A stretch of 26,299 nt of DNA, taken from positions 1 through 26,299 of IMG/VR virus record IMGVR_UViG_3300049733_000469, one strand, 5' to 3'. Positions within the stretch are counted from its first letter, which is position 1. The number at the start of each line of letters is the position of its first letter. Shown in pieces: positions 1-25,701 of the stretch. This DNA is from a virus. Position numbers and translations under genes: made by a program. The notes under the pieces are model-generated. The model was not told where the DNA came from and made no database searches. It saw only the letters and a list, made by a program, of their open reading frames with translations.

Positions 1-19
1 CACGCGCGGGACCATGGGA

Positions 20-89
20 TTGCCACGCCGCGCCATGCCCGACCTAGCCGGACGCTGCCATGCCGAGCCCTGCCGGGCCACGCCCAGCC
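20..89. repeat. GGCNN pentamer repeat array
   Basis: Read on the minus strand, these 70 bases divide into 14 consecutive pentamers, and 12 of them fit GGCNN (GGCTG, GGCGT, GGCCC, GGCAG, GGCTC, GGCAT and so on). Only the first three bases are fixed; the other two vary. The array begins 5 bases past the stop codon of the small gene at 95-355 and ends cleanly near base 20. Two of the three minus-strand frames are open through it, so it could be read into the start of a gene lying off the left edge (an ATG is present at 36-34). Confidence 0.75.
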
Positions 90-94
90 AAGAT

Positions 95-355
95 TCATTC
101 GAGGAGTCCATGCAGCCGTGATTCGATGCTCAGGATTGCGTCTACCCCGCCCAGCCCGTGCGCCATGATGCTCGAGGCCTCCGGTCGGCCCGCCACCTGC
201 GGACCACACACCCCCACCATCAACGATTCCCGGTGATCGGATAAGACGCGGAGCATCGCGGGAAACCGCGGATCGCGCATCAGGAGCGCCAGCGAGGATT
301 CGATCTGTTCGGGTGTTAGGATTCGTGCCCGCTCTTGGAGCTCAACAAAAGTCAT
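95..355 (-). CDS. Small helical protein downstream of portal, function unknown
   Basis: An 86-residue protein that follows the portal gene with a 20-base gap. The start is supported by a purine-rich AGGAAAGGAAGAAGAA stretch directly before the ATG, containing GGAAG at suitable spacing. The sequence is predicted mostly helical, has no membrane segment or signal peptide, and contains a single cysteine. Small proteins of this kind commonly sit between portal and scaffold/capsid genes in phages, but I do not recognise a named family. A packaging or head-assembly role is suggested by position only. Confidence 0.7.
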   Translation of the reverse strand: MTFVELQERARILTPEQIESSLALLMRDPRFPAMLRVLSDHRESLMVGVCGPQVAGRPEASSIMAHGLGGVDAILSIESRLHGLLE

Positions 356-375
356 TTCTTCTTCCTTTCCTCAGC

Positions 376-2571
376 TCATCCGGCCGCCCCCACTTGCGAG
401 CTCGGCATTGTTCCAATCCTGCCTGCCTGGGCGTTCACGGTCTTCTGTTCCACGGCGAACTGAAGCTGGGTTCGCCTCTTCTTGAGGAGCTCTGCCACCT
501 GGGGATTCTCGGAGGCGATCTGGAGGGCCCGACTGTTGGTTTGCATGATCTGGTCGAATGTCTGCAACCGAAGCGCATGAGCCTGGTTCGGTTGCACGTC
601 GTTATCGATGCCGTTGAGAAGTCCCGTGATGACCGCCCGCTCGGCATCAACCTCCGCTTGGGCCGCCCCTTGAGGATTCTTCAATAGCCGCTCCGCAAAG
701 GCCGGGTTGATTGCCTCGAGACCCAATCGGAGGAGTTGATCGCGATCCACCGTCCCGCCCATGTCCACCGCCTGGACAAACTGTATGAGCATCTCAAACT
801 GTTGCTTGAGGAGGTCCGGCTCGAGGCCGGCAATGTTGAATGTCAGGGAGAGATCGTACTTGCCCTGGATGTCCTCCCGGCTCGCCCGGATTGGCTCTCC
901 ATCGATCTGGCCAGTCACCCGGAACCAGAACACGTCCGGCTCGAATTGCTGGCAGAGAGCAAAGACCTGCTCAAGGACGTGAGTCCAGCAGGCAAGCCAG
1001 CGGCCTACCATTCGCATCCGCCGATTGCGGGCATAGGTCGGATCCGCATCGGGAGTGGGCCGTCCAAAGCTCCGGTCCGCCTGCAGGTGGATATCCTTTG
1101 AAACCTCGAATGAGGTTGCGGGCGGGGTTGGAACTGCCGCCCAATAATACTCGTTGGGCCGGATGTAAGGATGCTTTACCCCAGGACCCCACCTGGTCGG
1201 CGGCCGGCCGGCGGGATGCATGAGGGGAGGGATTGTCGAGAGATTGGTTGAATCGCTCCGGGAATCCGCCTCGAGCTTGAGGAGCTTCTGAAAGGTCGCG
1301 CCCACCTCCCCATAGCCCCGGGAATCGGTACAGCGCCGACTCAATCGCTCGCGGGGGAATTCCACGAACGGATATCGGCCATGATCATAATCGATGAGCT
1401 CAGAATAGGCGTAGATCTCCTTGCCATGTGAATTTGTGACGACGGGTGAAAAGACGGTGCAATAGATTCCAGGCACACCCCGATCATCCGATTTGCGCTC
1501 ATAGCAGTGGACGATCTCATAGAGGTTGTCGATATCGAGAAACGGATCACCCGGGGTTCGCCGACTATTCGAAATTCCCTGGGCCGATCGCTGCTCGAGA
1601 CCGGAGTACCAGGCAGCCGTGGACTGGCCTTTGCCTCGCTCCTTCACTTCCTTGACCCAATCTTCATCGTACCCCATCGCGAGCTGGCGATTGTCGAGCT
1701 CCTCGGCCGTGACGAATTCCCTCCGATACACTCGCCGCGCATCCTGGAGTCGTTGGGTGTCGTCGGGCAGAAAGAGATCGAGCCGATCCCGGAGCGCCGT
1801 TACACGCGGCTTGTTGCTTACAAGTTTGGGAACCACGATCGTCGTCCGACCGGTCTCCCGGAGTTCCTTGAGCCCTTTGCGAATATCCTCGCTCGACGGG
1901 TCAGGAATCTCCGTCTCATAAAGATCCGGAGTCGCAGCCTGCTGCTTGTAAAGCACCTTTATGATTTCAACCGAGGCCTCATCCCGATCCGGGTCCATGA
2001 GCGTCTGGGGAAGAGCCACGAGGAGTTGGAGATTCGGGTCGGGATCGCCCTGGGCCATTCGGAATTGCGCTTGCTGGGCGGCGTTGATGATGTTCTCGAT
2101 CGTCATCTCCTCTTCGGTGAGCTCGACCTTTCGCTCCCAGGTCACGGAGATATAAGCGATCCCATCTTCGAGCATTCCGTTGGCAAGGATCTCGACCTCG
2201 GCATCGATGTCCTCAATTTGAGAGCCCCAGAGCCATTGCAGGAACTGCGAGGTCCGTCTGGCCTTGGCGATGTCATCGAGGGCGACGGGCTTCGCCTCAG
2301 GCGTAGCCTGGGTGAAACTCAAACAAAGGGTGTCCACGTCCTCGTTGATATATTGATCGACCAGGAAGATCCGGCTGTCCGTGGCGCCTTCCCACGGGAC
2401 CACGTCCTGGCCGGCGGGTTGGTTCTTCTTCCACTTCTTCAGGTCGGACGATTGGCCAGACCAGACGCAATAGCGGGTGTTGTAGTTGAGCTGCCGGCGA
2501 GTTACGTCGTCCGCCGGGCCATTGATGAGTTCCTGGAACTCCGTGGAGATTTCACTAATGTCGGGTGTCAT
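376..2571 (-). CDS. Phage portal protein
   Basis: A 731-residue protein, close to the length of the P22 portal (about 725). Portals form the dodecameric ring at one capsid vertex through which DNA is packaged and ejected. The acidic N-terminal half, the central segment around residues 399-460 (RYPFVEFP, then RRCTDSRGYGE, a long polar helix and a STIPP motif) and the Gln-rich helical C-terminus are typical of large podoviral portals. It lies downstream of the large terminase, the usual order, although four small genes intervene. The ATG lacks a Shine-Dalgarno site and is preceded by a pyrimidine-rich leader found at two other virion genes. The call rests on size, pattern and position rather than a catalytic motif. 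Confidence 0.78.
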   Translation of the reverse strand: MTPDISEISTEFQELINGPADDVTRRQLNYNTRYCVWSGQSSDLKKWKKNQPAGQDVVPWEGATDSRIFLVDQYINEDVDTLCLSFTQATPEAKPVALDDIAKARRTSQFLQWLWGSQIEDIDAEVEILANGMLEDGIAYISVTWERKVELTEEEMTIENIINAAQQAQFRMAQGDPDPNLQLLVALPQTLMDPDRDEASVEIIKVLYKQQAATPDLYETEIPDPSSEDIRKGLKELRETGRTTIVVPKLVSNKPRVTALRDRLDLFLPDDTQRLQDARRVYRREFVTAEELDNRQLAMGYDEDWVKEVKERGKGQSTAAWYSGLEQRSAQGISNSRRTPGDPFLDIDNLYEIVHCYERKSDDRGVPGIYCTVFSPVVTNSHGKEIYAYSELIDYDHGRYPFVEFPRERLSRRCTDSRGYGEVGATFQKLLKLEADSRSDSTNLSTIPPLMHPAGRPPTRWGPGVKHPYIRPNEYYWAAVPTPPATSFEVSKDIHLQADRSFGRPTPDADPTYARNRRMRMVGRWLACWTHVLEQVFALCQQFEPDVFWFRVTGQIDGEPIRASREDIQGKYDLSLTFNIAGLEPDLLKQQFEMLIQFVQAVDMGGTVDRDQLLRLGLEAINPAFAERLLKNPQGAAQAEVDAERAVITGLLNGIDNDVQPNQAHALRLQTFDQIMQTNSRALQIASENPQVAELLKKRRTQLQFAVEQKTVNAQAGRIGTMPSSQVGAAG

Positions 2572-2573
2572 AT

Positions 2574-2593
2574 AGAGAGGGGTTAGGGATTAG
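2574..2593 (-). promoter_or_regulatory. Repeated pyrimidine-rich leader, copy 1 (portal)
   Basis: The minus strand reads CTAATCCCTAACCCCTCTCT and the portal ATG follows after AT. The same 20 bases occur exactly at 18502-18521 and with one mismatch at 20508-20527, each time 2 to 4 bases before the ATG of a virion-type gene. There is no purine-rich ribosome binding site. Its function is unknown; it could be a non-Shine-Dalgarno translation leader, a protein-binding site on mRNA or DNA, or a remnant of segment duplication. Confidence 0.65.
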
Positions 2594-2659
2594 GGGCAAG
2601 GGGCGGTTCCGGCAGCGGCATCTCGTACTCCCAGTACAATCCGTCCTGCCGGAGATTGC

Positions 2660-2681
2660 CCCCGGATCGAAAGGTCCGGGG
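2660..2681. other. Stem-loop between small gene and portal
   Basis: On the plus strand CCCCGGATC and GGTCCGGGG flank a GAAA loop, giving a nine-pair stem with one G-T pair. Read on the transcribed minus strand it has seven pairs, a mismatch, a further pair and a UUUC loop. It lies just past the stop codon at 2685 and before the portal leader. No U-run follows on the minus strand, so it is not a textbook terminator. It may be an RNA processing or stability element. Confidence 0.45.
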
Positions 2682-2684
2682 CTT

Positions 2685-2933
2685 TCATGCTTTTGGAGGT
2701 TCCTTGAAAAGGGCCGTGTCCAGGTCAACGACACGCCCCTTTCGAAAGTCGTCCATGGCATGGGTAAAGGCTTCGGGAACACCCTCCACCTTTCGGGTCA
2801 CACCCTCGCCCGAAGCGCCCAACGTATAGCGGATCATGATGATCTTCTCTTTAGGGGGTGGTGGTTGTGGTTTCTTTGGCGCGAAGAGTCCCAGAAGCGA
2901 TCCGGTGAAAAATTTACGGCGGTTAGTCTTCAT
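2685..2933 (-). CDS. 82-residue protein with Tat-like N-terminus
   Basis: The N-terminus MKTNRRKFFTGSLLGLFA resembles a twin-arginine export signal (RRxFx followed by a short hydrophobic stretch), then a Lys/Pro-rich linker PKKPQPPPPKEK and a soluble tail of about 50 residues. The hydrophobic stretch is short and no clear AxA cleavage site is seen, so export is uncertain. The start is the ATG two bases from the stop codon of the upstream gene. A second in-frame ATG (residue 33) would remove the signal-like region. I do not recognise the family. A DNA hairpin and the portal leader follow it. Confidence 0.6.
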   Translation of the reverse strand: MKTNRRKFFTGSLLGLFAPKKPQPPPPKEKIIMIRYTLGASGEGVTRKVEGVPEAFTHAMDDFRKGRVVDLDTALFKEPPKA

Positions 2934-2934
2934 A

Positions 2935-3204
2935 TCATTGTCGTCCAAGCAGCCGATCCAGCAGGCTTCGCTTTGGAGGTTTGGGGACCCAGCCCGAGAA
3001 ATTGATGTCGCAGGCGTCCCTATGCGAACGAGTGGTTGAGCAGAGAAAGCCGGAAAGTTGACATCGATCGAGGTCGTAAAAGACTGATTCCTGCCTGTGC
3101 CCACAAGTGGAACAGTTCCGAAGCGGGCCGGCTTGGGGTGGCGCCTGCCAATCTGTGTCTGTGGGTTTAGCTGAATCGCAATTGTGAGTGAAGCGGGGTT
3201 TCAT
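2935..3204 (-). CDS. Small Cys-rich (zinc-finger-like) protein
   Basis: An 89-residue protein with NCSTCGH in the middle followed by DRCQLSGFLCSTTRSHRDAC, that is CxxC, then C(x7)C and another C. Spacing like this is seen in small phage-borne zinc-finger proteins that end in a CSTTR/ACG-like segment; binding of zinc through these cysteines is inferred. It sits between a DUF2283 gene and the Tat-like gene. The start ATG at 3204 lies 12 bases past the preceding stop. The role is unknown. Confidence 0.6.
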   Translation of the reverse strand: MKPRFTHNCDSAKPTDTDWQAPPQAGPLRNCSTCGHRQESVFYDLDRCQLSGFLCSTTRSHRDACDINFSGWVPKPPKRSLLDRLLGRQ

Positions 3205-3216
3205 TGCTTGGGCGGC

Positions 3217-3396
3217 TCAGGTTTCAATCAACAATTCAACCCCAATCATTTGTCCGTCTTCGTCGAGGTCAAAGAGGCATTGGCGGACCTTGATTTCCTT
3301 GGTGCTGCAAACCTTGGCTTTCTGTTTAGTGCGGAAGTAGATGGTGTTGCGTTGGAAGTTGATTTCATAGGTGGCGGGTCGTTCTTTGGGTTTCAC
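3217..3396 (-). CDS. DUF2283-like small protein, GTG start
   Basis: A 59-residue protein starting at GTG, in a GTGA overlap with the stop of the upstream HTH gene. The sequence has the DUF2283 pattern: an early YxxNTIYFR strand, a middle TKEIKV strand and a final FDLDEDGQMIGVELL motif (D-x-DEDG-x-x-x-G-x-E). DUF2283 proteins are small and of unknown biochemical function, and are common in mobile elements. Its short length and non-ATG start make it easy to miss. The opposite strand is also open here, but only this strand carries a recognisable motif. Confidence 0.7.
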   Translation of the reverse strand: MKPKERPATYEINFQRNTIYFRTKQKAKVCSTKEIKVRQCLFDLDEDGQMIGVELLIET

Positions 3397-3569
3397 GGCT
3401 TAATCATTAGGAGAATATCGTCCCGCCAGTAACGCCAGTGGCCCCCAGGCGTCTTGCGGGACCTGATCCGGCCGCGGGAGCAGTAGATCCGCAGCGAATG
3501 GCGTCCTTCACCGAGGAGGTTCAACGCCTCCTTCGGCGTGAGCCAGGGACGAAAGCCCTCCACCACTAG
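3393..3569 (-). CDS. Small HTH (excisionase/MerR-like) DNA-binding protein
   Basis: The recognisable part reads WLTPKEALNLLGEGRHSLRI, then YCSRGRIRSRKTPGGHWRYW and DDILLMIK. This fits the HTH_17 excisionase-like winged helix: a TxxEA start, an R-rich recognition helix, GRI, a PGGHxR wing and a final acidic DDI helix. A GTG at 3569 is the most plausible start, just after the terminase stop; ATT at 3590 is a poorer alternative and the open frame continues upstream into terminase. There is no clear ribosome binding site. An HTH protein at this place might be a regulator or a DNA-recognition partner of packaging, which is only inference from position. Confidence 0.6.
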   Translation of the reverse strand, partial: LVVEGFRPWLTPKEALNLLGEGRHSLRIYCSRGRIRSRKTPGGHWRYWRDDILLMIKP

Positions 3570-3582
3570 CTGGAAGTGAGTG

Positions 3583-5580
3583 TTAATAAGTCCCTCCTCC
3601 GGTCCCGAGAAGGCCCTCCGCCCCCACGTAGGGCAGGTTCGCGAGGCACACATAGCGCAACAAGTCACAGAAATCTTTGCAGCCGCCCTTGGCGCCGCCC
3701 CGCGCGGTATAGGTTTGCATCGCCCAGATCACCTGCTCGCACTCCGCTGAAACGTATAGACGCGGCTCATTCACGCCCGGAACGAGGCCTTCGGGGTGCA
3801 GCGGATCCCAATCGAGCAGCTCGTTGACCTCGCTAAGGCCCGTTCCGATCTGGGCATTCTCGCCCGTGCCGAGTTGTCGGCCGCTATAGGCCGACTCCAT
3901 CGTCATCGGCTCAGAGACTGTGCCCTTAGCTCCCTCGACCCGCTCCGCAAAGAGCTCGATCACAGTCCTGGCGCCCTGCTCCTGGGCGTGTTGCGTGCCG
4001 GCCGCGCGTGGATCGATGTAGCGGCCCATGATCACCTCGCGCAGCGGTTCGGCCAGGTTGGCCCGGACCTCGCGCACATCCGCAGGATCCCAAAGGCCGT
4101 CCTCCCCTGGCTTCTTCCGAAAGCCTCGCATCACCTGGTCGCACCAATGCCGACGGTAAGGATCCTTCTCAGCCCACTCTCCAGAGCCCTCCGTGGTCAT
4201 CGAGATTGTCTCCCGATCGAGGAACAATTCCTTGTAGCCGGTGACCCCGAGGCCATCGCTCTGCTGGGCGGGTCCGGCGCGGCCGTCGGGCTCAGACTCT
4301 GAATCGCTCGGGACAGCCCAATCCCCAAAGAGGCGCTTGTGCGGCCAATCCCGGTAAATGAAGTGATAACCGCGCGGATCCACCCGGACCCAGATCGTGG
4401 CCCAGCGCCGAGCCCCGGCGGGATCGGTAAAGAGGTAGTTGGTTCCGTCCTTGGGCAAGTGCTCTGGCTTTACGATGTGAACCGCACCGAATTTCGGAAA
4501 TGCCCGGTGACGGATGTCCGTCGCCCAACCGTAGGAGTCGCGCATGATCACGGTCTCGGGCCGCGAGCGGATCTCGGCCGCGTGGGCCTCGTAACGGCCA
4601 AAGGGATTGTCCTTGCGGAAGAAGAAGACCGCGCGGGTCCGGTGCCGGCCGCACTCGACCACGCTCGGCATCTGGCCGGGCCGGCAGCCAGGGACGAGGA
4701 CGCGGTGATTCGGGAGGAGCTCCGCCTCGCGCTCCTCGAGGACCCTGGGGACACCGAGCATCTCCTTGATCGTTGCCGTGATCCCTTCCAGCGGTGAATA
4801 GGTCCAGAGGCCGCAGGATTGTAAATCCTGGGAGCGAGTTTCGGCCGTCTCGAGCCACAAGAGCGGCATATTCTCATCCGCCCACCAACCCATGTTGGGA
4901 AGGGAAAGCTCGCGACCGCCTGGAAAGCTGATCGTCGTTGGCTTGTGAACTTCACCCCCAAGCTTCCAGCCCTGGTAATGCTTTGGATCCTGAACAAAGC
5001 TGAGGAACTTCACGATCGTGGGCGGTTCGGTGGGCATCACGAGGAGATTATCTGAGAAGCCGCGGCCCTCAGCGTACTTGAGCTTGAAGTCGCGCGACTC
5101 CTTGGCGTTGAGTTCGACTCGCCAGGCTCGCGGCAGGTAACGCCAGATCGCGGGTTGCTGGATGTTTTGAGAGGAATTCTCGGTCTCACCCAGGACCCAG
5201 CGGCGGCCACCCGGATAGGCCAGGCACGATTTGACAAACAGCCAGGCTGCGCACTCTGTCTTGGAGGCCCGTTTACCCCCGCCGCAGTAGACCGTCCTGG
5301 CAAATTGAAATTGCTCGACCAGCTTGTACCAGGCATCGAGGACGAAGCCATGAGTGAGGGGTTCGCCGGTCCGTTCGTCTGCGTCCTCAATCCGCTTGGT
5401 GTATTCGGCAAAGAGGGCGGCGACAACATAGAGGCCGCTCTGGAGGGGCCGGCGCATCGCTGCCGCGACCTCCCGTTCGGTCGGCAGCCGCAGGATCGGA
5501 TGAGGCGGCGGGGCATGTTCCACGAGGAACTTCCGGGCCTGGGCAATGAGCCAGTCGTCATTGAGCGTCTGGGCAGTCAT
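3583..5580 (-). CDS. terL: Terminase large subunit (ATPase/nuclease)
   Basis: This 665-residue protein packages DNA into the prohead and cuts it. The ATPase half shows a Walker A-like GGGKRASKT at residues 100-108, a Walker B-type WWADEN with D235/E236, and a TYSPLEG coupling motif near 260-266. The nuclease half shows FTDPAG with D386 as the first metal ligand and, near the C-terminus, KDFCDLLRY with D636 and D639, which matches the terminal acidic motif of RNase H-like terminases. IGTGLSEVNELLDWD is also a typical terminase C-terminal segment. AAAGG lies three bases before the ATG. No small terminase subunit is recognised in the window. Confidence 0.93.
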   Translation of the reverse strand: MTAQTLNDDWLIAQARKFLVEHAPPPHPILRLPTEREVAAAMRRPLQSGLYVVAALFAEYTKRIEDADERTGEPLTHGFVLDAWYKLVEQFQFARTVYCGGGKRASKTECAAWLFVKSCLAYPGGRRWVLGETENSSQNIQQPAIWRYLPRAWRVELNAKESRDFKLKYAEGRGFSDNLLVMPTEPPTIVKFLSFVQDPKHYQGWKLGGEVHKPTTISFPGGRELSLPNMGWWADENMPLLWLETAETRSQDLQSCGLWTYSPLEGITATIKEMLGVPRVLEEREAELLPNHRVLVPGCRPGQMPSVVECGRHRTRAVFFFRKDNPFGRYEAHAAEIRSRPETVIMRDSYGWATDIRHRAFPKFGAVHIVKPEHLPKDGTNYLFTDPAGARRWATIWVRVDPRGYHFIYRDWPHKRLFGDWAVPSDSESEPDGRAGPAQQSDGLGVTGYKELFLDRETISMTTEGSGEWAEKDPYRRHWCDQVMRGFRKKPGEDGLWDPADVREVRANLAEPLREVIMGRYIDPRAAGTQHAQEQGARTVIELFAERVEGAKGTVSEPMTMESAYSGRQLGTGENAQIGTGLSEVNELLDWDPLHPEGLVPGVNEPRLYVSAECEQVIWAMQTYTARGGAKGGCKDFCDLLRYVCLANLPYVGAEGLLGTGGGTY

Positions 5581-13692: not shown

Positions 13693-14999
13693 CCGCCTTT
13701 GGTGCGGAGCCGGGTTCGCTTGCTCGCCGCCAATTGGAGCTTCGTCTTCGCTGCTTCCTTCGCGCCCTTGGTGCCACCTTTCAGCATCGCCTGGCTGATG
13801 GCAGCCAGATCGTCCGGACCCAGGCTCGCCATCAATTCACTGGCTCGCATTGCATAGGCGCGTTCGTGCGGAGCGGTCTTGCGTCGGACGACTCGCTCGC
13901 TCTGGGAGTAGGCCTCCTGGGCAATCTCTTGAGCCAGTGCGCGTGGAACGCCTGCAGTGATTAATCCCTGGCTCAGATCGACGGTGGACTGTGCCTTGAT
14001 GTGGTTTATTACCGCCGTCGGAGTGACCCCGGGACGCAGGGGGTTGCTTTCGGTCCCAGGAAGCGGCTTGGTCGCTCCGCCCGGCATCAAATTCTGCTTC
14101 ACCGCGTCGTAGTGGACAGGAAAGTTCTGACCGCTGGAGTCGGTCATTTGATTCAACCGATCGAGCCGGTAGCTGCGCCAGGGATTGTCGCGGCTGGATT
14201 TCGTGCTCAGTCGGGATTCGCCCAAGGCTCCCTTGGCCGCCTCACCTCCCAGAAGATCAGTGATAAGGTTCCGTTTCTGAACTGCCACGACGGGATCCCG
14301 ATCGAGGTGCAAACTGTTGGGAAGTCCCTGGCGCTGGTTATCGATATACTTGAATATATCGGCCATCACGGCCCTGTCATCACTCCATGCACCCAACCTG
14401 GACTTGATCTTCGGATCGTCCATCCAGCGTGCGAGCTTGCGTTCGAGCAGTCCAATGTCGAAAGCGTCAAACCCCATGCCGCCTTCCTTGTTGATAAAGA
14501 AAGCAAAAGGAACGGTCTCGTAGGCCTTACTGCCCATCGAGGCGTATTTGCGTTTGCCCGTGCGACCCTTCTCACGCGTGGCTGGATTGTAGTCGATGGC
14601 CTTGGCCGTGCCGGCACCGGATCGGACTGCGGCGTTGAGGTTCTTGATGTCCGCAAGCTGCCGAGGTGGGAGAATGTTCCTGGGGACCTTCTCAAGGGCC
14701 GCGAGTTGGGCATCGGTGTAGTAATGGCCTTTCCAGCTCACGCCATTCTCCTGAAGCTTCATCGGCTCAAGTTCACGGCCGTTCACGACCAGGTTGTCGT
14801 CTGGGCCCAGAGAAACGTCCTTGAGTGCCTCGCCAACGACCGCAATCCGTTGCTGGACCAGCCGGCGGACGGCGCCTTCATCCAATAGGACAGGTGTGCC
14901 ACGCGGGGTGAAATAGGACATTGCCATCGGCGTCTTTGGCGTAGGTGTCCGTGTTGCCGTGTAGATCCGGGCGATCACCTTAGCGTGCTTGCCCATCAT
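13689..14999 (-). CDS. Second ORF of the ejection/polyvalent protein block
   Basis: A 436-residue ORF. The middle, from about residue 140 to 260, holds YNPATREKGRTGKRKYASMG, AYETVPFAFFINKEGGMGF and SLHLDRDPVVAVQKRNLI, followed by NPWRSYRLDRLNQM; such a segment with a WRSYRLDR-type motif is familiar from the C-terminal regions of very large phage polyvalent/internal virion proteins. The last ~100 residues are Lys/Ala/Gln-rich helices. Tandem ATGs at 14999 and 14996 are the likely starts and overlap the previous ORF by about 20 bases; later ATGs at 14927/14921 are alternatives. It may be a separately translated half of what is one protein in relatives. No enzyme motif is recognised. Confidence 0.7.
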   Translation of the reverse strand: MMGKHAKVIARIYTATRTPTPKTPMAMSYFTPRGTPVLLDEGAVRRLVQQRIAVVGEALKDVSLGPDDNLVVNGRELEPMKLQENGVSWKGHYYTDAQLAALEKVPRNILPPRQLADIKNLNAAVRSGAGTAKAIDYNPATREKGRTGKRKYASMGSKAYETVPFAFFINKEGGMGFDAFDIGLLERKLARWMDDPKIKSRLGAWSDDRAVMADIFKYIDNQRQGLPNSLHLDRDPVVAVQKRNLITDLLGGEAAKGALGESRLSTKSSRDNPWRSYRLDRLNQMTDSSGQNFPVHYDAVKQNLMPGGATKPLPGTESNPLRPGVTPTAVINHIKAQSTVDLSQGLITAGVPRALAQEIAQEAYSQSERVVRRKTAPHERAYAMRASELMASLGPDDLAAISQAMLKGGTKGAKEAAKTKLQLAASKRTRLRTKGG

Positions 15000-17172: not shown

Positions 17173-18499
17173 GGGGAGATTTGAAACCGTGATTGAGGGC
17201 CTCGTCGTATTGCTCCGCAGGAATGTCCCGCAATTTCCCGTCCGGCGTGATGATAGGGAGATATTTCACCCCCGGCACCCGGGTGCCCGGCTTGGGGGCC
17301 GCCTTGTTCTCAGCGGACGCCCCAGCGCCAACCTTGAGCCTCTCCTTGACCCAATCCGGAAGATTGGGCGGGAGCCTCCCGCCATGGGTGGCTGACCAAT
17401 TCCTGATCCTCTCAACGGCCACGTCTTTCTGCGCCTCAGCAGCCGCTTCGCTGGTTGCCGTTGAAACTGTGCGACCCCAGGGAAACAAATTCGCCGCGGC
17501 CGCCTCGACCTCACCCTGCGTGATCTGGTTACCGGGATCCACCAACTTCGCACGCGCTGAAGCCAAATCGAATGTGAGCTGCTTCATTGCTGCCACCACC
17601 GGATCATTGGGTAGGTACGCGATCCCTTGCTCTCCCAACTCCCTTGCCTTGGTCTTGAATTTCTCCAGGAGATCGAGATAGGAGGGGGCTGTGGTCATGA
17701 ACATCTGATCCGCAGGGGTGACTTTGTCTTCCTCGCTCTCCGGCAGCATGTGCACGTCGCCCTGGTCATCCACAAAACCCTTGCCCACGCGATTTCCCTG
17801 GTCATCGAAAAGAGTGCGGGCGACGGGGTTGGGATTTACCGGGTTCTTGGCGGCTTGGAAGTGTGTCTGACCTCGGCCAGTGCCGATGATCCGCGAGCCG
17901 TCGGAAAGCGTGAGCTCCTGGCCAAGCCCCAAGCCGCCGCTTCGACTCTGGTTATTGTCAATGGTGTTGATGAGGTTCGTGATGTCCTGGTCGCCAAAGA
18001 GACCGGCCTCCGTCGCGTAGCGCGCAATGGTTTCGCCAGTGAACTCAGGTCGCGGGCCGGCCGCGCTCTTAAACATCAACGGAGGATTGAGGTGCTGACT
18101 GACTCTTCGACTGAATTCCTTCATCCTCCCCGTGCGGTCGAGTCGTTCCGCAGCCTCGCCCGCCTGCAAGTCCATCTGCTTCCTGAGGAGCTCCACTCGA
18201 TCGCGATCGGCCTGCTCCGCGGCTCTGAGGTGCCTTTCGTTGAGATAGGACGTGACGCCGCCGATGAGGCCCTGGACCTGGCCGGAGCTCATCTTCGGAG
18301 CCTGGGAAAGCTTCTCCCCGAACATCTCAATGCCTTGCGGATCATTGGCCAGGTAACGTCCGAGCGTCTCGGCCGTGCTGATATACCGGTCGCGTTCCTC
18401 GCGGTTCTGGCGCCAGTTCTGGATATTCTGAGCGATCCGCGGCCCCATCGCTGCGAAGTAATCGCCAGCGCGAGGTTCGACTCCAGGTGCGTATGGCAT
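17156..18499 (-). CDS. Internal virion/ejection-type protein
   Basis: A 447-residue protein. The first ~45 residues match the start of the 117-residue protein at 19271-19624 (DYFAAMGPRIAQNIQNWRQN against RSFASAGPQFRSNLSSWMQH). Residues 85-130 are charged and helical. The C-terminus KYLPIITPDGKLRDIPAEQYDEAL, then NHGF, is a motif often ending phage internal proteins (PDGxxxxIPxEQxxEAxxxGF). Position next to the HExxH ORF supports a role in the ejection apparatus. Its ATG has the pyrimidine-rich leader of 18502-18521 and no Shine-Dalgarno site. Confidence 0.7.
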   Translation of the reverse strand: MPYAPGVEPRAGDYFAAMGPRIAQNIQNWRQNREERDRYISTAETLGRYLANDPQGIEMFGEKLSQAPKMSSGQVQGLIGGVTSYLNERHLRAAEQADRDRVELLRKQMDLQAGEAAERLDRTGRMKEFSRRVSQHLNPPLMFKSAAGPRPEFTGETIARYATEAGLFGDQDITNLINTIDNNQSRSGGLGLGQELTLSDGSRIIGTGRGQTHFQAAKNPVNPNPVARTLFDDQGNRVGKGFVDDQGDVHMLPESEEDKVTPADQMFMTTAPSYLDLLEKFKTKARELGEQGIAYLPNDPVVAAMKQLTFDLASARAKLVDPGNQITQGEVEAAAANLFPWGRTVSTATSEAAAEAQKDVAVERIRNWSATHGGRLPPNLPDWVKERLKVGAGASAENKAAPKPGTRVPGVKYLPIITPDGKLRDIPAEQYDEALNHGFKSPHAGKP

Positions 18500-18501
18500 A
18501 A

Positions 18502-18521
18502 AGAGAGGGGTTAGGGATTAG
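18502..18521 (-). promoter_or_regulatory. Repeated pyrimidine-rich leader, copy 2
   Basis: Minus strand CTAATCCCTAACCCCTCTCT, identical to the copy before the portal, followed by TT and the ATG of the 447-residue protein. The TAA at its beginning is the stop codon of the preceding DDxxD gene. Confidence 0.65.
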
Positions 18522-18943
18522 TGCGGGCGGCCTTGTTCATCGTGGTTGGCGGTCCAGGTCTGGCGGCGGATGAGCGGGCTGATCTTTCGCATGTGTGCAT
18601 ACCCACCGCAAATTGCCGCCACCATGCAGTACATCTCGACACCAGCGAACCGAAGAACGTCCGCCATCGCCCGCTCTGGAGAGTCGCCTGACTTCTCCCA
18701 GGCGACGGAGTCAGCGTAAGCATTTGTGATGGCAACAACCAAAGGCCGAAGGTGGATGCAGTTTGCCAGCCAGAACGGATGGGCGTAGAGATCCGCAGCC
18801 TGGGCGAGGACCTCGAGCAGTGACTCAGGACCGCGCGCTTCATCAATAAGATCATCAACCGCGTGGCAATAGGCGTGCCACTTCTGGAGCCAGTCGGCTG
18901 CGCCCGGATTTCCACAGGTGAGCTCATGGATGGGAATCTCCAT
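18518..18943 (-). CDS. DDxxD-motif helical protein, paralogue 2
   Basis: A 141-residue, all-helical protein. Key segments are CGNPGAADWL, HAVDDLIDEA (D30, D31, D34; DDxxD), AHPFWLANCIHL, AITNAYADSVAWEKS and a final VAAICGGYAHMRKISPLIRR. The same segments, in the same order, occur in the 168-residue protein at 20524-21030, so the two are paralogues. DDxxD is the metal-binding motif of isoprenyl-diphosphate/terpene synthases, but this protein is much shorter than those enzymes and a shared fold is not shown. I believe such proteins occur beside tail-fibre genes in other short-tailed phages. Its stop codon lies in the leader of the next gene. Confidence 0.68.
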   Translation of the reverse strand: MEIPIHELTCGNPGAADWLQKWHAYCHAVDDLIDEARGPESLLEVLAQAADLYAHPFWLANCIHLRPLVVAITNAYADSVAWEKSGDSPERAMADVLRFAGVEMYCMVAAICGGYAHMRKISPLIRRQTWTANHDEQGRPH

Positions 18944-20503: not shown

Positions 20504-20507
20504 ATAA

Positions 20508-20527
20508 AGAGAGGGGATAGGGATTAG
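20508..20527 (-). promoter_or_regulatory. Repeated pyrimidine-rich leader, copy 3
   Basis: Minus strand CTAATCCCTATCCCCTCTCT, one mismatch from the other two copies, followed by TTAT and the ATG of the 291-residue protein. Its TAA is the stop codon of the preceding DDxxD gene, just as in copy 2. Further upstream (to about 20590) are other CGCCCCTAATTCC and GAGGGGCGAGGGAC-like tracts. Confidence 0.6.
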
Positions 20528-21030
20528 GGGCTACGGGCGAGAGAAGAGGAATTAGGGGCGAGTCCATCGCCCTTAGTCCCTCGCCCCTCTTCTTGGTCCC
20601 AGTCGGGAGAAAGGAGCATCCGGATCCGGGGGCTCACGCTCCGGCGATGGAAATAGCCGCCCACAAGGCCCGCCACGACAAAGACCACTTCGTTGATCTG
20701 GTCGGACCACACCCGCGGGGCCACCAGGAGACCGTCCGGATCCATCTGGTTGGCGTCCTGCCATGCGTTGACCGCAGTGTCGTGTAAGGCAACGAGATGA
20801 GCCGCATGCTGGGCAAAGAATGGATTACGGGGCAGGGCCACCAGGAGCAGGTGAGCGAGATAGCCGACATCGACCGGGCCCGCATCCCCGTCGTGGAGGT
20901 CATCCAGCATCCGGATTGCCTGGGCGATCAAGGTTAGATAGGCCGCCGCGGCCGCGTTGTCCCCACAGGCCAGGGCGATCGCCTCCTGGACGGCGTGGTG
21001 GTTCTTCTCACGTTCTGCCGCGGTACTCAT
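20524..21030 (-). CDS. DDxxD-motif helical protein, paralogue 1
   Basis: A 168-residue helical protein. The key segments are ACGDNAAAAAYLTLIAQAIR, LDDLHDGD (D43, D44, D47; DDxxD), PRNPFFAQHAAHLVALHDT, VNAWQDA, and VFVVAGLVGGYFHRRSVSPRIR. These align in order with the 141-residue protein at 18518-18943. The last ~20 residues (GRGTKGDGLAPNSSSLARSP) are encoded by the repetitive leader region, so the natural C-terminus may once have been shorter. It directly follows the tail-fibre gene, four bases away. Function unknown; a fibre-assembly or host-modifying role is guesswork. Confidence 0.68.
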   Translation of the reverse strand: MSTAAEREKNHHAVQEAIALACGDNAAAAAYLTLIAQAIRMLDDLHDGDAGPVDVGYLAHLLLVALPRNPFFAQHAAHLVALHDTAVNAWQDANQMDPDGLLVAPRVWSDQINEVVFVVAGLVGGYFHRRSVSPRIRMLLSPDWDQEEGRGTKGDGLAPNSSSLARSP

Positions 21031-21033
21031 AAG

Positions 21034-22374
21034 CTATCCGATCACGAGGACGTTGATCCAACCGCTGTCGCGGTTCTCTCCCTCGTCGTCCGCGATCCCA
21101 ATGTCCACATAAGTCGTCGTCGGGACGGATCGATCCACGTCGAGCCACCCATAAGCTCCCTCGTTGTCACTATCAAAGGCCTTCCCGGCGGTGATCAGGG
21201 TCGCGTAGTTCGCTGAAGAAAGGGGAGTCGTGAAGCTGACCCGATACCGCCCGGTATTGCCATGCCCCGCAATGTTGTTCCGGACCACGGCCGAGACGTT
21301 CACCCCGCTGCGGATCGGGGCGGCCTTCCCCTTGGGCCACATGAAAAAGTAATACTCGTCGTCATTCGGATCGAGGACCTGCAAGCTCACCCGCTGCGAC
21401 TGGTCGCGCGTGAGGGCCCCCTGCTTCGTCCGGTACAATTCAAGGTTGGTCGAGCTCGCCGGATGGACAAAGTAGGGCGTATAAAATTCGATCCCGGGAA
21501 TGTCACGGCCCTCGTTCGTCCAGATGTAATCGCCCGCCTGGAGCCCGGTCGGCAGCGCGCCCCGCGGATCGTTCATCGCACGGGTCGAGAGGGTCTCGGT
21601 CGCCTTGAGAAATGCGACTCGGAAAAGGACATCCGTCTGGGACCCGTCGAAATTGACCCAGGCCTTGATCCCGCCCGCCTGGCTCAGGACATCGCCCAGC
21701 TTGATCCGTTGCTGCTGCGCCCCGGCGGTCCCGGAGATCCGCCGGATCAATAGCTCGTCATCAATCCGGTTGAGCGTCCCGGAAAAGGCCGGGGCATCCG
21801 CGATGAGGGTGTCCGTGACCGACCGGACGACCGTCGCCACCTTCCCCTTGCGGTTCTGGTTGCTCCCAGCGGCCGCCGAGGCGTCATACAAGAGAACCAT
21901 GTCCCCGAGCGGGTCCACGGGGCTCACCGAGGAGGTTGGACGTTCCACCGCGTTGACCAGTTCACTCTGGCCATTGATCGCCTCGCGAAGGGTGTCGCCA
22001 ATCGTCGCCTTCTTGTTCAACCCGCCCTCGGCCTGGATGATCCAGGCAAAATCGTTGAACTTCACCGCGCTGATCGCGGTAAGGTCCGGCGTGCTGAGGG
22101 CAAGGACCTGGCCAATCGTCGTCCGACGCAGGCCATTGGCGTCCACGCTGTGGTACATCAACATGTCCTTTGTCGCCGCGTTCAAGGGTGTCAGCCCTGT
22201 GATGAGACCCGGGCTCAGCTTGTCGCTCGTGATGCTCCCAGGGGCAATCGCGCTCGAGGAGAGGGCCCCCTGCAACTCGATCGTGGGCCGGCCGAGTTGG
22301 TTAAGCTTGGTCTGGGTCAGCTTCTCATTCTCACCAAACTGGTAGCCTGGAATCACTCGTAAGCTCAGTGCCAT
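21034..22374 (-). CDS. Tail fibre / receptor-binding protein
   Basis: A 446-residue protein. The N-terminus GYQFGENEKLTQTKLNQLGR and the central strand/turn-rich part are consistent with a fibre attached to the tail. AWVNFDGSQ (238-246) marks the start of a typical fibre C-terminal segment, interrupted by ~115 residues, and then VNVSAVVRNNIAGHGNTGRY, VSFTTPLSSANYATLI and the final INVLVIG match the AWVNFxG...YxVxFxxxLxxxNYxxx pattern of receptor-binding tips. AAAGG nine bases before the ATG is a good ribosome binding site. It follows the protease-containing protein. Host range is probably set here. Confidence 0.75.
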   Translation of the reverse strand: MALSLRVIPGYQFGENEKLTQTKLNQLGRPTIELQGALSSSAIAPGSITSDKLSPGLITGLTPLNAATKDMLMYHSVDANGLRRTTIGQVLALSTPDLTAISAVKFNDFAWIIQAEGGLNKKATIGDTLREAINGQSELVNAVERPTSSVSPVDPLGDMVLLYDASAAAGSNQNRKGKVATVVRSVTDTLIADAPAFSGTLNRIDDELLIRRISGTAGAQQQRIKLGDVLSQAGGIKAWVNFDGSQTDVLFRVAFLKATETLSTRAMNDPRGALPTGLQAGDYIWTNEGRDIPGIEFYTPYFVHPASSTNLELYRTKQGALTRDQSQRVSLQVLDPNDDEYYFFMWPKGKAAPIRSGVNVSAVVRNNIAGHGNTGRYRVSFTTPLSSANYATLITAGKAFDSDNEGAYGWLDVDRSVPTTTYVDIGIADDEGENRDSGWINVLVIG

Positions 22375-22378
22375 AAAT

Positions 22379-24046
22379 TCATACCTTTATTCCCATCTGC
22401 CGCTCGGTCTCCTGGAGTTCCAACTGGACGGCGCGCAATTCGAGGATCCCGGAGGTGTTCTCCAGGATCGCCTGGTGCCACCGCCCCCGCTGACGGACCA
22501 TCCGCAAGGGATGATTGGCCTCCTGCTTCAGGTCCACCGGCAGCCCCTTGTCCAGGTTCAACTCGATCGGCTGCGGCGCGAGGTCAAGCGACACCCCAAA
22601 ACTCACGTCGAGCGAAAAGGCCGGCGAGAGATCCAGCGGCGTGTCGCTCGATGGGAGCCAGATCGTGTAATCCTGGCGGAAGGGTGTGAAGAAATCGGCG
22701 TTGGAATTGTCCGGGACCCACCTCGGGACCCCCGCCGGTTTGTCGTACGTCCGGTGATCCCGCGACCGATCCTTGACAAGGGTCGCGAGCTCGCTCACTC
22801 CCTCGGTCCGCGTCGCCACGCTATAGACCGGGTCCAGGGTCGCCACGACGAGCCTCGCGAATTGCCCTGCCTTGAATCCAGCCGCCCCGCCGGTGTACCC
22901 GCGCGTCGTCGCCGAGATCGCGATCGGCTCGAGGCTCAGGTGGTTCCAGGCATCCGGCGCGAAAATCTGGTCGCCGGCATCCGACTCCTCATAAAGATTC
23001 AGGAAACCATCCTCCGTGACACAACACAGCCGCTCGATGCCGTCAATCGTCATCACGAACCACTCGCGGACCGCGAGGTCAGGCCCGCGGTGGATCGGCT
23101 GCCACTGGGCCGTCTGGTAATCGTACACAATGACGCCCGTGTTCACGTCCGTGAGAACCCGGCGCAAGGAGCTCTGGGCGGGCAGACCGGGCTCGGTCCC
23201 GGGCGCCGGCACCGGCTCGGGCGGTTCCTCGCCATTCTTCTCCGCGATCCAGGCGTTGTCGTGATAGGTGCAGGACCCGCTCAAACCCACCCTAAACTCT
23301 CCATTCTTGTACGGGTGCAGGTAGCCCATGGGTTCATTGACACCCCCGGCGATCACCCCGACAAAGACCCAGGGATCCTCCGGCGGACCGCAGTTGACGA
23401 ACGCGGCCCCCCCGGAATCCCCGCTGACGCAACACGCTGTTTCCGGGTGCCCGTCCGGGTCATCGTGATGGCGGGCGAGGCTCGTGAAATTGATCCACGC
23501 CGGCGGATCAGGCTGGGCCGGGTTGGGCGGGTAAACGCTGTCTTCCCCGATGACATCCGCGCGCGAGATGCCCCAACGCATGCCGTAAGAGGTGCCGTCA
23601 CTGGTGACGTAGGGCCACCCCTCGCCATCGACGAGGGAGGCGCCCCCGGAGGCCCCGGCGATCGTCAGGAAGAGGCTCTCGTTACTGACCGCTTCATTAG
23701 TGTACCGCTTGAACCACTGGGGGATGTCCCGATCGACCGTGCAGTAGACGAGGTCCGGGGTGTAGATGCTGCCAGATTCCCCCTCGATCCGGGCGGGTGA
23801 ATTCTCCCAGGCCGTGACAATCACCGTGATGCCCTGGATCTGGATTTGTTGACCCACGAATGCCCCAACATGCTGGGCACTCACAAGGAGCCGCGGGCCG
23901 ATCGGTGAATAGACGATGTCCAGTTCTGAGTTGAACGCGTAGCGACCGACGAGGTCCCACGGTTTACGAACCGATTCGTACAGACTTCCCACGGCAGGTT
24001 TGTCCGTGTTGTGCGTATTGTCGTAAGCCGGGTTGGTGAAGATCAT
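22379..24046 (-). CDS. Virion-associated protein with N-terminal trypsin-like serine protease domain
   Basis: A 555-residue protein. The first ~280 residues carry a complete chymotrypsin-type triad: LLVSAQHVG (H59), YTPDLVYCTVD (D98), and CCVSGDSGGAAF (S211 in GDSGG), with spacing close to trypsin's. WINFTSLARHH and a VFVGVIAGGV strand fit the second barrel. A Pro-rich linker (EEPPEPVPAPGTEPGLPA) leads to a beta-rich C-terminal half of the structural type (VLTDVNTGVIVYDYQTAQW) ending in a helix LELRAVQLELQETERQ. It overlaps the upstream structural gene as ATGA. The virion location is inferred from neighbours and the fused tail. No signal peptide is seen. Confidence 0.78.
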   Translation of the reverse strand: MIFTNPAYDNTHNTDKPAVGSLYESVRKPWDLVGRYAFNSELDIVYSPIGPRLLVSAQHVGAFVGQQIQIQGITVIVTAWENSPARIEGESGSIYTPDLVYCTVDRDIPQWFKRYTNEAVSNESLFLTIAGASGGASLVDGEGWPYVTSDGTSYGMRWGISRADVIGEDSVYPPNPAQPDPPAWINFTSLARHHDDPDGHPETACCVSGDSGGAAFVNCGPPEDPWVFVGVIAGGVNEPMGYLHPYKNGEFRVGLSGSCTYHDNAWIAEKNGEEPPEPVPAPGTEPGLPAQSSLRRVLTDVNTGVIVYDYQTAQWQPIHRGPDLAVREWFVMTIDGIERLCCVTEDGFLNLYEESDAGDQIFAPDAWNHLSLEPIAISATTRGYTGGAAGFKAGQFARLVVATLDPVYSVATRTEGVSELATLVKDRSRDHRTYDKPAGVPRWVPDNSNADFFTPFRQDYTIWLPSSDTPLDLSPAFSLDVSFGVSLDLAPQPIELNLDKGLPVDLKQEANHPLRMVRQRGRWHQAILENTSGILELRAVQLELQETERQMGIKV

Positions 24047-25701
24047 ACTGCCTCCTCCGCGCCATCACCCGGGACGACTCGCTTGATCCCGAAAAAGCTC
24101 TGGCCGTCCCAGGTGACCTGCGTGGCGCTCGAAATGGGATCTTGACCATTGACAAGGAGCCGTTCGCTGCCATCGGGCGCTGGATCCCAGCGCACCGTCA
24201 TCCCCGGGCGTATAAACCACAGCGTGCTAAGATCGAGCACCTCGGAAAACGAGATCCCTTCGAGCCAGTTCGTGCCCGCCACCTCGCTCACCCCCACGGG
24301 CGCCGCCAGGTAGATCGCGTCATTCCAGTACGCGAGCCGGATCTTGTCCGAAAGGGTCCAGTCAATCTCCTCGATCCAGGGCTGGACGGGATCGGAAAAG
24401 GCCCGTTCCACGCCCTGGATCTTGTTCTGGGCGGTCTGCTGAAGGGAGACCACTCCGCGGCGGGGCGAGACAAAGACCGCATCCCGCCCTGCCTCGGTCG
24501 CTGCCCTCGGGTTGGCAACGCCGTAATTGCGGATGATCATTTCAAGGGAAAGGGCCTCGAGGGTGTCGCCCGTCAGGTTCGTCAGGAGACCGACCGACTG
24601 CGATTTGAGGGTGAGGACCGAACTGTCCCCAATCTTCAGGAGGGACTGGAGCTCGTCGGCGCTCCCCTGATTGATCCTGAACTCGTTCTTCGGCGAGTAA
24701 CGGTAGTAATCGAGGACATAGCTCGCCGCGACGAAGTCGCGCTTGGCACCGTAAACGCCCGCCTGAAATTGGCTGTCCGGGATCCACGAGGTCGTCACGA
24801 GAAGCCGGTTGTTGACAAAGACCCCGTTGGTGCAGTTCGGCAAAATCAGGTACTCACGCTTCCAGCCCTCGCCCACGCCCGGTTCCTCGCCCACCGCGGG
24901 CTCGGTGTCCTCCTCGCTGTCGTCGTCCCAGGGCCCGGCAATCCAGTAATGCGAGTTGACACTCCACTCGAGGGTGCTGCTGACCGTGCTCACGTCGCTC
25001 GCCGTGAATTCAAAGGCGTATTCATCGACAACCTTGACCGTGTACCGGCCGTCCTGCTTCCCCCCAGAGGTGTTCCGGATTTGCACGTCCGATCCAGAGA
25101 TCAGGCCGTGCGGCGCCTGGGCCGTCACCCGGAGGGTCGCTCCCTCCGCCACCACGTCCCCATGCTTCCACGGGCCCCAGGCCACGAGGGCGCCCTCGTC
25201 ATACTCCTCGGCGGCATCCCAGCGGGCCACGAGGTCTTTAAAGCCCTCGTCCACGGTCTCAAGGACCAGGGGCGCCATCAGTTCACCCCGCAGCATGAAC
25301 ATCTTGTTGAAGGCCTGGACGAAGCTCACCTCGGTCTGGATCTTCACCCCCGCCGGCAGCGGGATCGCGAGCGGCGTGTTGTACGGACGCAAGGCAAAGA
25401 CCCCTTCATCCGCGGCGAGCATCAGCCACTCGATCCCGTTCGGATCGCGAAAGGGCTGCGGCTGCCCGTTGATCGTGTGCCAGGGCAGGACCTTGTCTCC
25501 ATCAAGCCGGTTCATCCAGGCGGGCTTCCAAAGGCCCCGCCGGGTCACAGGCCGGCCCGTCCGGCACCGGAGATTTGTCCCGTCCGCGAGGAGGCCCGCC
25601 GGCAACTGCGAGGGCTCGGCATTGAGGTAGACACCACTCCAGGCCACGTCGCCGACATCAGCGGGCGTGTCATCGCGCGGTCCATAAGTCCGGTATCGCA
25701 T
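24043..25701 (-). CDS. Head-completion/tail structural protein
   Basis: A 552-residue, beta-rich protein. The start (VYLNAEPSQLPAGLLADGTN, then GRPVTRRGLWKPAW) has the SxLPxG...NxRxRxGxxxxRxG pattern seen at the N-termini of P22 gp10-like stabilisation proteins. An acidic insert (DDDSEEDTEPAVGEEPGVGE) lies around residue 270. FVNNRLLVTTSW, YYRYSPKNEFRIN and WNDAIYLAA are blade-like strands of a propeller. In relatives this role may be filled by one larger protein; here the next gene, with the protease domain, may be its second half. Translationally coupled to it by an ATGA overlap. Confidence 0.68.
   Translation of the reverse strand: MRYRTYGPRDDTPADVGDVAWSGVYLNAEPSQLPAGLLADGTNLRCRTGRPVTRRGLWKPAWMNRLDGDKVLPWHTINGQPQPFRDPNGIEWLMLAADEGVFALRPYNTPLAIPLPAGVKIQTEVSFVQAFNKMFMLRGELMAPLVLETVDEGFKDLVARWDAAEEYDEGALVAWGPWKHGDVVAEGATLRVTAQAPHGLISGSDVQIRNTSGGKQDGRYTVKVVDEYAFEFTASDVSTVSSTLEWSVNSHYWIAGPWDDDSEEDTEPAVGEEPGVGEGWKREYLILPNCTNGVFVNNRLLVTTSWIPDSQFQAGVYGAKRDFVAASYVLDYYRYSPKNEFRINQGSADELQSLLKIGDSSVLTLKSQSVGLLTNLTGDTLEALSLEMIIRNYGVANPRAATEAGRDAVFVSPRRGVVSLQQTAQNKIQGVERAFSDPVQPWIEEIDWTLSDKIRLAYWNDAIYLAAPVGVSEVAGTNWLEGISFSEVLDLSTLWFIRPGMTVRWDPAPDGSERLLVNGQDPISSATQVTWDGQSFFGIKRVVPGDGAEEAV

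Follow-up and report, generated by a model that had tools for sequence, protein, structure and literature searches.

A host-type serine protease inserted into a split tail nozzle gene may be carried on the tail of a metagenomic phage

Virion-borne enzymes that act during entry include tailspike depolymerases, the lysozyme-like gp16 of T7 and the peptidoglycan peptidase gp13 of phi29, which cut sugars or peptidoglycan, and nearly all virion enzymes known to us to open a phage's way act on glycan or peptidoglycan. In T7, the nozzle protein gp12 is hexameric, with a seven-bladed propeller as its base, one blade loop of which reaches into the nozzle tip; gp10 of P22 is predicted to be similar to it (PMC6702177). 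For one cluster of alphaproteobacterial phages, the literature mentions a trypsin-like protease, without structural context (PMC10783043). Here we describe a protease-bearing split nozzle from one metagenomic contig, IMG/VR record IMGVR_UViG_3300049733_000469, analysed over its positions 1 to 26,299 (26,299 nucleotides, hereafter the window), which probably stems from a phage whose short-tail module is of the P22/T7 type and whose host is among the Verrucomicrobiota. Both parts are of known kinds, and it is their combination, a protease and a split tail nozzle, that is unusual and, as far as the collections and papers searched show, new.

Table 1. Features of the split nozzle locus in the window.
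Feature	Position	Strand	Remarks
ORF1	24043..25701	-	552 aa; nozzle N-terminal two thirds; ends 11 residues past the conserved WDGxSxxGIxR
AGGAGG Shine-Dalgarno	24051..24056	-	4 nt before the ORF2 ATG, within ORF1 codons for EEA
ATGA, ORF1 stop overlapping ORF2 start	24043..24046	-	from sequence
ORF2	22379..24046	-	555 aa; protease domain, linker and nozzle C-terminal third
Protease domain, chymotrypsin-fold serine type, without signal peptide	23252..24046	-	approximately residues 1-265; profile E 3.4e-10; AF2 pTM 0.70; Foldseek probability 1.00 to S1 enzymes
Catalytic His59 codon	23870..23872	-	H in 58/58 family members
Catalytic Asp98 codon	23753..23755	-	D in 56/58 family members
Catalytic Ser211 codon (GDSGG)	23414..23416	-	S in 59/59 family members
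Pro/Glu-rich linker, protease to nozzle C-part	23171..23245	-	approximately residues 268-292; from sequence; missing in relatives
Nozzle C-terminal third in ORF2	22382..23182	-	residues 289-555
Downstream tail fibre gene	21034..22374	-	phrog_11355, E 8.6e-8

ORF2 gives a stop-free translation, in which the initial annotation recognised an intact chymotrypsin-fold serine protease, with H59, D98 and S211 (in GDSGG) in the appropriate order and spacing, joined by a Pro-rich linker to a structural half. The translation confirmed the positions of the three residues and the linker: H59 lies in SAQHV, D98 in TPDLVYC and S211 in VSGDSGGAAF, and the Pro-rich stretch is EEPPEPVPAPGTEPGLPAQ. Besides this triad, ORF2 keeps Asp210 and the oxyanion residue Gly209. 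In trypsin, specificity is set by an Asp six positions before the catalytic Ser. ORF2 has C205 at this S1-pocket position, unlike the protease family described below, so that 'trypsin-like' denotes the fold rather than the cleavage specificity and the substrate is not predictable.

Direct searches with the ORF2 protein gave no significant match in Pfam, PHROG, PDB sequences or INPHARED, and the Pfam Trypsin profile (PF00089) gave none at E <= 1 or 10, the curated cut-off not being reached; the protease homology is thus visible only through bacterial intermediates. We scanned 85,000 genomes of bacteria and archaea with SGDSGG[AS]AF as the anchor and no phylum restriction, and obtained 42 candidates, one of which matched ORF2 by tblastn, a protein encoded in a Chthoniobacterales MAG (27% identity over 212 aligned columns). 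In the anchored scans, helper rows with altered residues steered the choice of pattern only; confirmation was done with the real sequence, and none of these rows was used in folding. The family to which the intermediates belong (L008-type) is present in 35 of 289 genomes of the phylum Verrucomicrobiota and in 57 of 384 genomes of the class. A profile built from 22 Verrucomicrobiota proteases, with the window left out, matched ORF2 at E = 3.4e-10, the next ORF of the window being at E = 2.3, and the match spans residues 1-231 of ORF2 (positions 7-237 of the stop-to-stop frame).

Across 59 distinct family members, the columns aligned with H59, D98 and S211 are conserved (counts in Table 1, for members aligned at each position); of the residue losses in homologues that the initial annotation had named as speaking against its proposal, the only one seen is that of the Asp, in two members. 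An RWG motif is common to ORF2 and the family, its W158 and G159 being invariant, and three members (L016, L030 and L033) exceed the curated Pfam Trypsin cut-off. Part of the family (L008-L072) has the oxyanion Gly209 replaced by Y, K, N or other residues while keeping the triad. The members examined appeared to be exported, with N-terminal signal-peptide-like leaders and, in some, PEP-CTERM-like tails, as judged by eye. The ORF2 domain begins at the mature end, because the profile homology runs from residue 1, where the exported members follow their signal peptide. The window copy thus resembles the exported trypsin-like proteases of the Verrucomicrobiota (S1 type, distantly PF00089/PF13365) in its H-D-S triad, RWG motif, mature-domain start and predicted fold, whereas it differs from them in lacking a signal peptide and a PEP-CTERM or other C-terminal tail, in having two longer loops (approximately residues 83-96 and 168-190) and in its fusion to a virion protein. 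In the protease block GC3 is 0.78, against 0.82 and 0.84 in its flanks, which leaves room for an acquisition that is not recent.

For residues 1-275, the AlphaFold model predicted from the family alignment (pLDDT 68.7, pTM 0.70) is confident around H59 (93-96), less so around S211 and poor beyond residue 239, and the second barrel is incomplete in the model owing to this low confidence. All 50 PDB matches listed by Foldseek were S1/chymotrypsin-fold chains or complexes containing one, at probability 1.00, with E down to 3.7e-6 and, in a model that is weak past residue 239, TM of about 0.4-0.45. The initial annotation had proposed such a comparison of a predicted structure with chymotrypsin folds. 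A single-sequence AlphaFold run on full ORF2 was unusable (pLDDT 34), and a MAFFT alignment of whole ORF2 with protease and nozzle rows together misplaced the protease end and was discarded.

The remainder of the locus is best understood by comparison with three phage relatives (L001, L002 and L005), in which the nozzle is a single ORF of 825, 806 and 813 aa, respectively. ORF1 is 79, 68 and 68% identical to the first 550 residues of these proteins, and ORF2 residues 289-555 are 75, 69 and 68% identical to their last 267 residues. L001 and L002, both IMG/VR phages, have no counterpart of ORF2 residues 1-288. The protease block sits between WDGxSxxGIxR and PAxSxLRRV, in a linker of low conservation, its flanks corresponding to the nearly adjacent R550 and P559 of the L001 protein, and no protease of the Verrucomicrobiota family occurs anywhere in the L001, L002 and L005 records. 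Since the nozzle of the relatives is one uninterrupted protein, ORF2 represents the insertion of a protease that split a structural gene, not a simple fusion. On the evidence of these alignments, ORF1 and the C-part of ORF2 derive from a single ancestral protein. The initial annotation, in which the protease was fused to a virion-type half and lay between a head-completion-type gene and the tail fibre gene, holds as to the joining, the tail module and the kinds of the neighbours; what needs revision is that the virion-type half is the C-terminal third of the ancestral protein of the upstream ORF, and that the upstream gene (24043-25701) is the N-terminal two thirds of the same nozzle. The tail fibre gene is syntenic, directly following the nozzle gene in L001 (8807-10105), L002 (8809-10119) and L005 (8440-9747). 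A chimeric assembly was ruled out, as the sequences on either side of the insert come from a single gene and are almost contiguous in its protein.

Comparison with the relatives gave dN/dS of 0.12-0.24 for the C-part and 0.09-0.24 for both halves, similar to unsplit genes, values that are rough because synonymous sites are near saturation. As far as such ratios tell, purifying selection still acts on each half of the nozzle.

We read the structural protein as a tail hub/nozzle of the P22 gp10/T7 gp12 kind (head closure Hc3), a fold assignment that passes through intermediates. The direct match of the nozzle protein to an annotated 'phage stabilization protein' is weak (E 6e-4; hhalign probability 95), and the nozzle alignment (A12) had no match among PDB sequences. 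A profile of the three whole nozzle proteins found homologues in 3 of 384 Verrucomicrobiota genomes (E 4e-17, 4e-16 and 7e-14). The first two of these, L077 and L078, lead on to PHROG families: L078 matches phrog_578 'head closure Hc3' at E 1e-9 and L077 matches Hc3 at E 0.004, other virion families also being matched, and it is these matches that suggest the tail hub/nozzle reading. A fibre-type gene lies directly downstream of two nozzle homologues in Verrucomicrobiota genomes; one homologue is located in a prophage-like region of a 3.75-Mb contig, with the fibre gene (phrog_11355) immediately downstream. The window nozzle resembles P22 gp10, T7 gp12 and PHROG Hc3 in a probably homologous core recognised through intermediates, in its place before a tail fibre gene and in a length of ~800 aa in its close relatives, but differs from gp10 and gp12 in being encoded as two chains with a protease domain in a loop.

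Between YYLAVP and NTLFLWNALNSQW, L079 has a loop of some ten residues, against ~90 residues in L001, L002 and L005. It is this loop, already long in those three relatives, that holds the window protease. The nozzle of L077 (6776-9082, in a Verrucomicrobiota prophage) likewise has an added stretch in this putative propeller loop, of an unrelated beta type that matches virion proteins, but there the stretch is non-enzymatic and the gene unsplit. A loop that is short in L079, expanded in three phages and filled differently in L077 points to an insertion-tolerant site to which domains have been added repeatedly. The site would be a propeller loop on the outside.

These features suggest that the particle may carry a protease at its tail. 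We consider it somewhat probable that ORF1 and ORF2 form a two-chain nozzle displaying an active protease that cuts host-envelope proteins at entry. To the fuller scenario, in which splitting of the nozzle gene re-targeted a host-derived exported protease onto the particle, with two chains and about six active proteases cutting envelope proteins at entry, we would give slightly less than an even chance. On the first of these readings, the phage would have acquired a host-type exported serine protease, which lost its signal peptide, and the mature domain would have been inserted into the surface-loop linker of the tail hub/nozzle protein. Translation of ORF1 would be coupled, through the ATGA restart at a strong ribosome site, to that of a product consisting of protease, linker and nozzle C-part, and the two chains would re-assemble into one nozzle protomer. 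If there are six protomers per tail, as in T7 gp12, about six proteases would project from the tail, held outside it by the Pro-rich tether. There, as the phage adsorbs and enters, they would most likely cut envelope or surface-layer proteins of the host, and attachment to the virion could serve, with the signal peptide gone, as an alternative route bringing an exported-type enzyme to the cell surface. Cleavage at the host surface is the function we prefer; on fibre maturation and the triggering of DNA release, both raised in the initial annotation, the data speak neither for nor against.

This reading presupposes that the break between the two ORFs is genuine. A one-base sequencing or assembly error at 24043-24046 could have created it, in which case the true product would be a nozzle of ~1,100 aa with the protease as a propeller-loop domain; the contig is of metagenomic origin, and in other nozzles of the family this loop has taken up insertions while the gene stayed whole. 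Such an error, however, must fall within ~20 nt between two stops and must by chance leave an ATG exactly where the protease homology starts, the ATGA overlap and an AGGAGG that is the only such site ahead of a start among the 16 window genes and 15 genes of relatives checked. Moreover, the ORF2-frame stop lies seven codons upstream, leaving six codons for a frameshift that joins the ORFs, and the only slippery-like heptamer nearby (CCCGGGT) is located immediately ahead of that stop, where a -1 shift would fail to join them. We therefore regard an error as decidedly unlikely. Origin of the break by an intein, an intron or frameshifting was ruled out, there being no Rfam match and no usable slippery site and the insert being a full protease domain. 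Shine-Dalgarno sequences are nearly absent from the genes of the window phage and its relatives, which suggests Shine-Dalgarno-independent starts in the host.

Granting two chains, the protease could act on the phage itself rather than on the host, by processing nozzle, fibre or ejection proteins in assembly, or by freeing itself or the nozzle C-part and so opening the tail. Phage assembly commonly involves proteolytic maturation, and the protease here lies in cis with a gate-forming protein. Nevertheless, the nozzles of close relatives (66-79% identical) have no such protease, so that assembly as common to the group contains no step needing it, and the donor family is exported and oriented to the cell surface; we hold this self-directed role to be unlikely. 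A catalytically dead domain with a binding or spacer role on the tail seems to us quite unlikely, given that the triad, Asp210 and Gly209 are all kept, the last even though it has been lost in part of the bacterial family. Protease scaffolds can nonetheless be reused without activity, and an inactivated protease paralogue of the scabies mite is among the fold neighbours. It might also be supposed that ORF2 is not packaged, its protease working inside infected cells or once they have lysed, with the nozzle C-part as a passenger, as the signal peptide is absent. A passenger would hardly be constrained as in unsplit nozzles, and the C-part completes a structural protein needed for the expected tail formation, which makes this very improbable.

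The preferred reading, an active protease on a two-chain nozzle, would share with the known virion-borne entry enzymes a particle-carried activity opening the envelope, but differ in that the enzyme is a chymotrypsin-fold protein protease residing in the nozzle. No nozzle bearing a protease, and no chymotrypsin-fold protease inside a split nozzle, was found in IMG/VR, INPHARED, PLSDB or the literature searched, and the homologues fused to phage structural proteins that the initial annotation proposed to look for did not turn up in short-pattern scans of the three collections, which diverged copies would escape. Viral contigs yielded no relative of the protease, whether by a scan with the domain alone or by a GDSGG[APS]AF anchor; a scan for the family anchored on [NGD]SGW returned none, nor did INPHARED or plasmids. 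If the preferred reading is true, the enzyme would be a protein-cutting counterpart of the polysaccharide-cutting tailspikes. With a protein protease in its nozzle, a phage would cross the envelope by another route, which would hint at barriers made of protein on Verrucomicrobiota. The locus also pinpoints a loop of the nozzle that tolerates foreign domains and even a chain break, useful for protein display on short tails.

Some other features of the window and its relatives are worth recording. A repeated leader, TAATCCCTAACCCCTCTCTTT, occurs on the minus strand at 2570-2605, 18498-18533 and 20504-20539, directly before the ATG of three genes; with up to three mismatches allowed, it was not found in the examined parts of L001, L002, L005 and L077. 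The genes at 18518-18943 and 20524-21030 are paralogous, both belonging to phrog_21390 and to the same tail/ejection module. A tRNA-Ser (GGA) predicted on the plus strand at 14106-14180 falls within an ORF of the minus strand and could be spurious. Upstream of its nozzle gene, L005 encodes a 1,407-aa repeat protein (1-4224) with repeats such as NIYTSDGTLTGPRQV.
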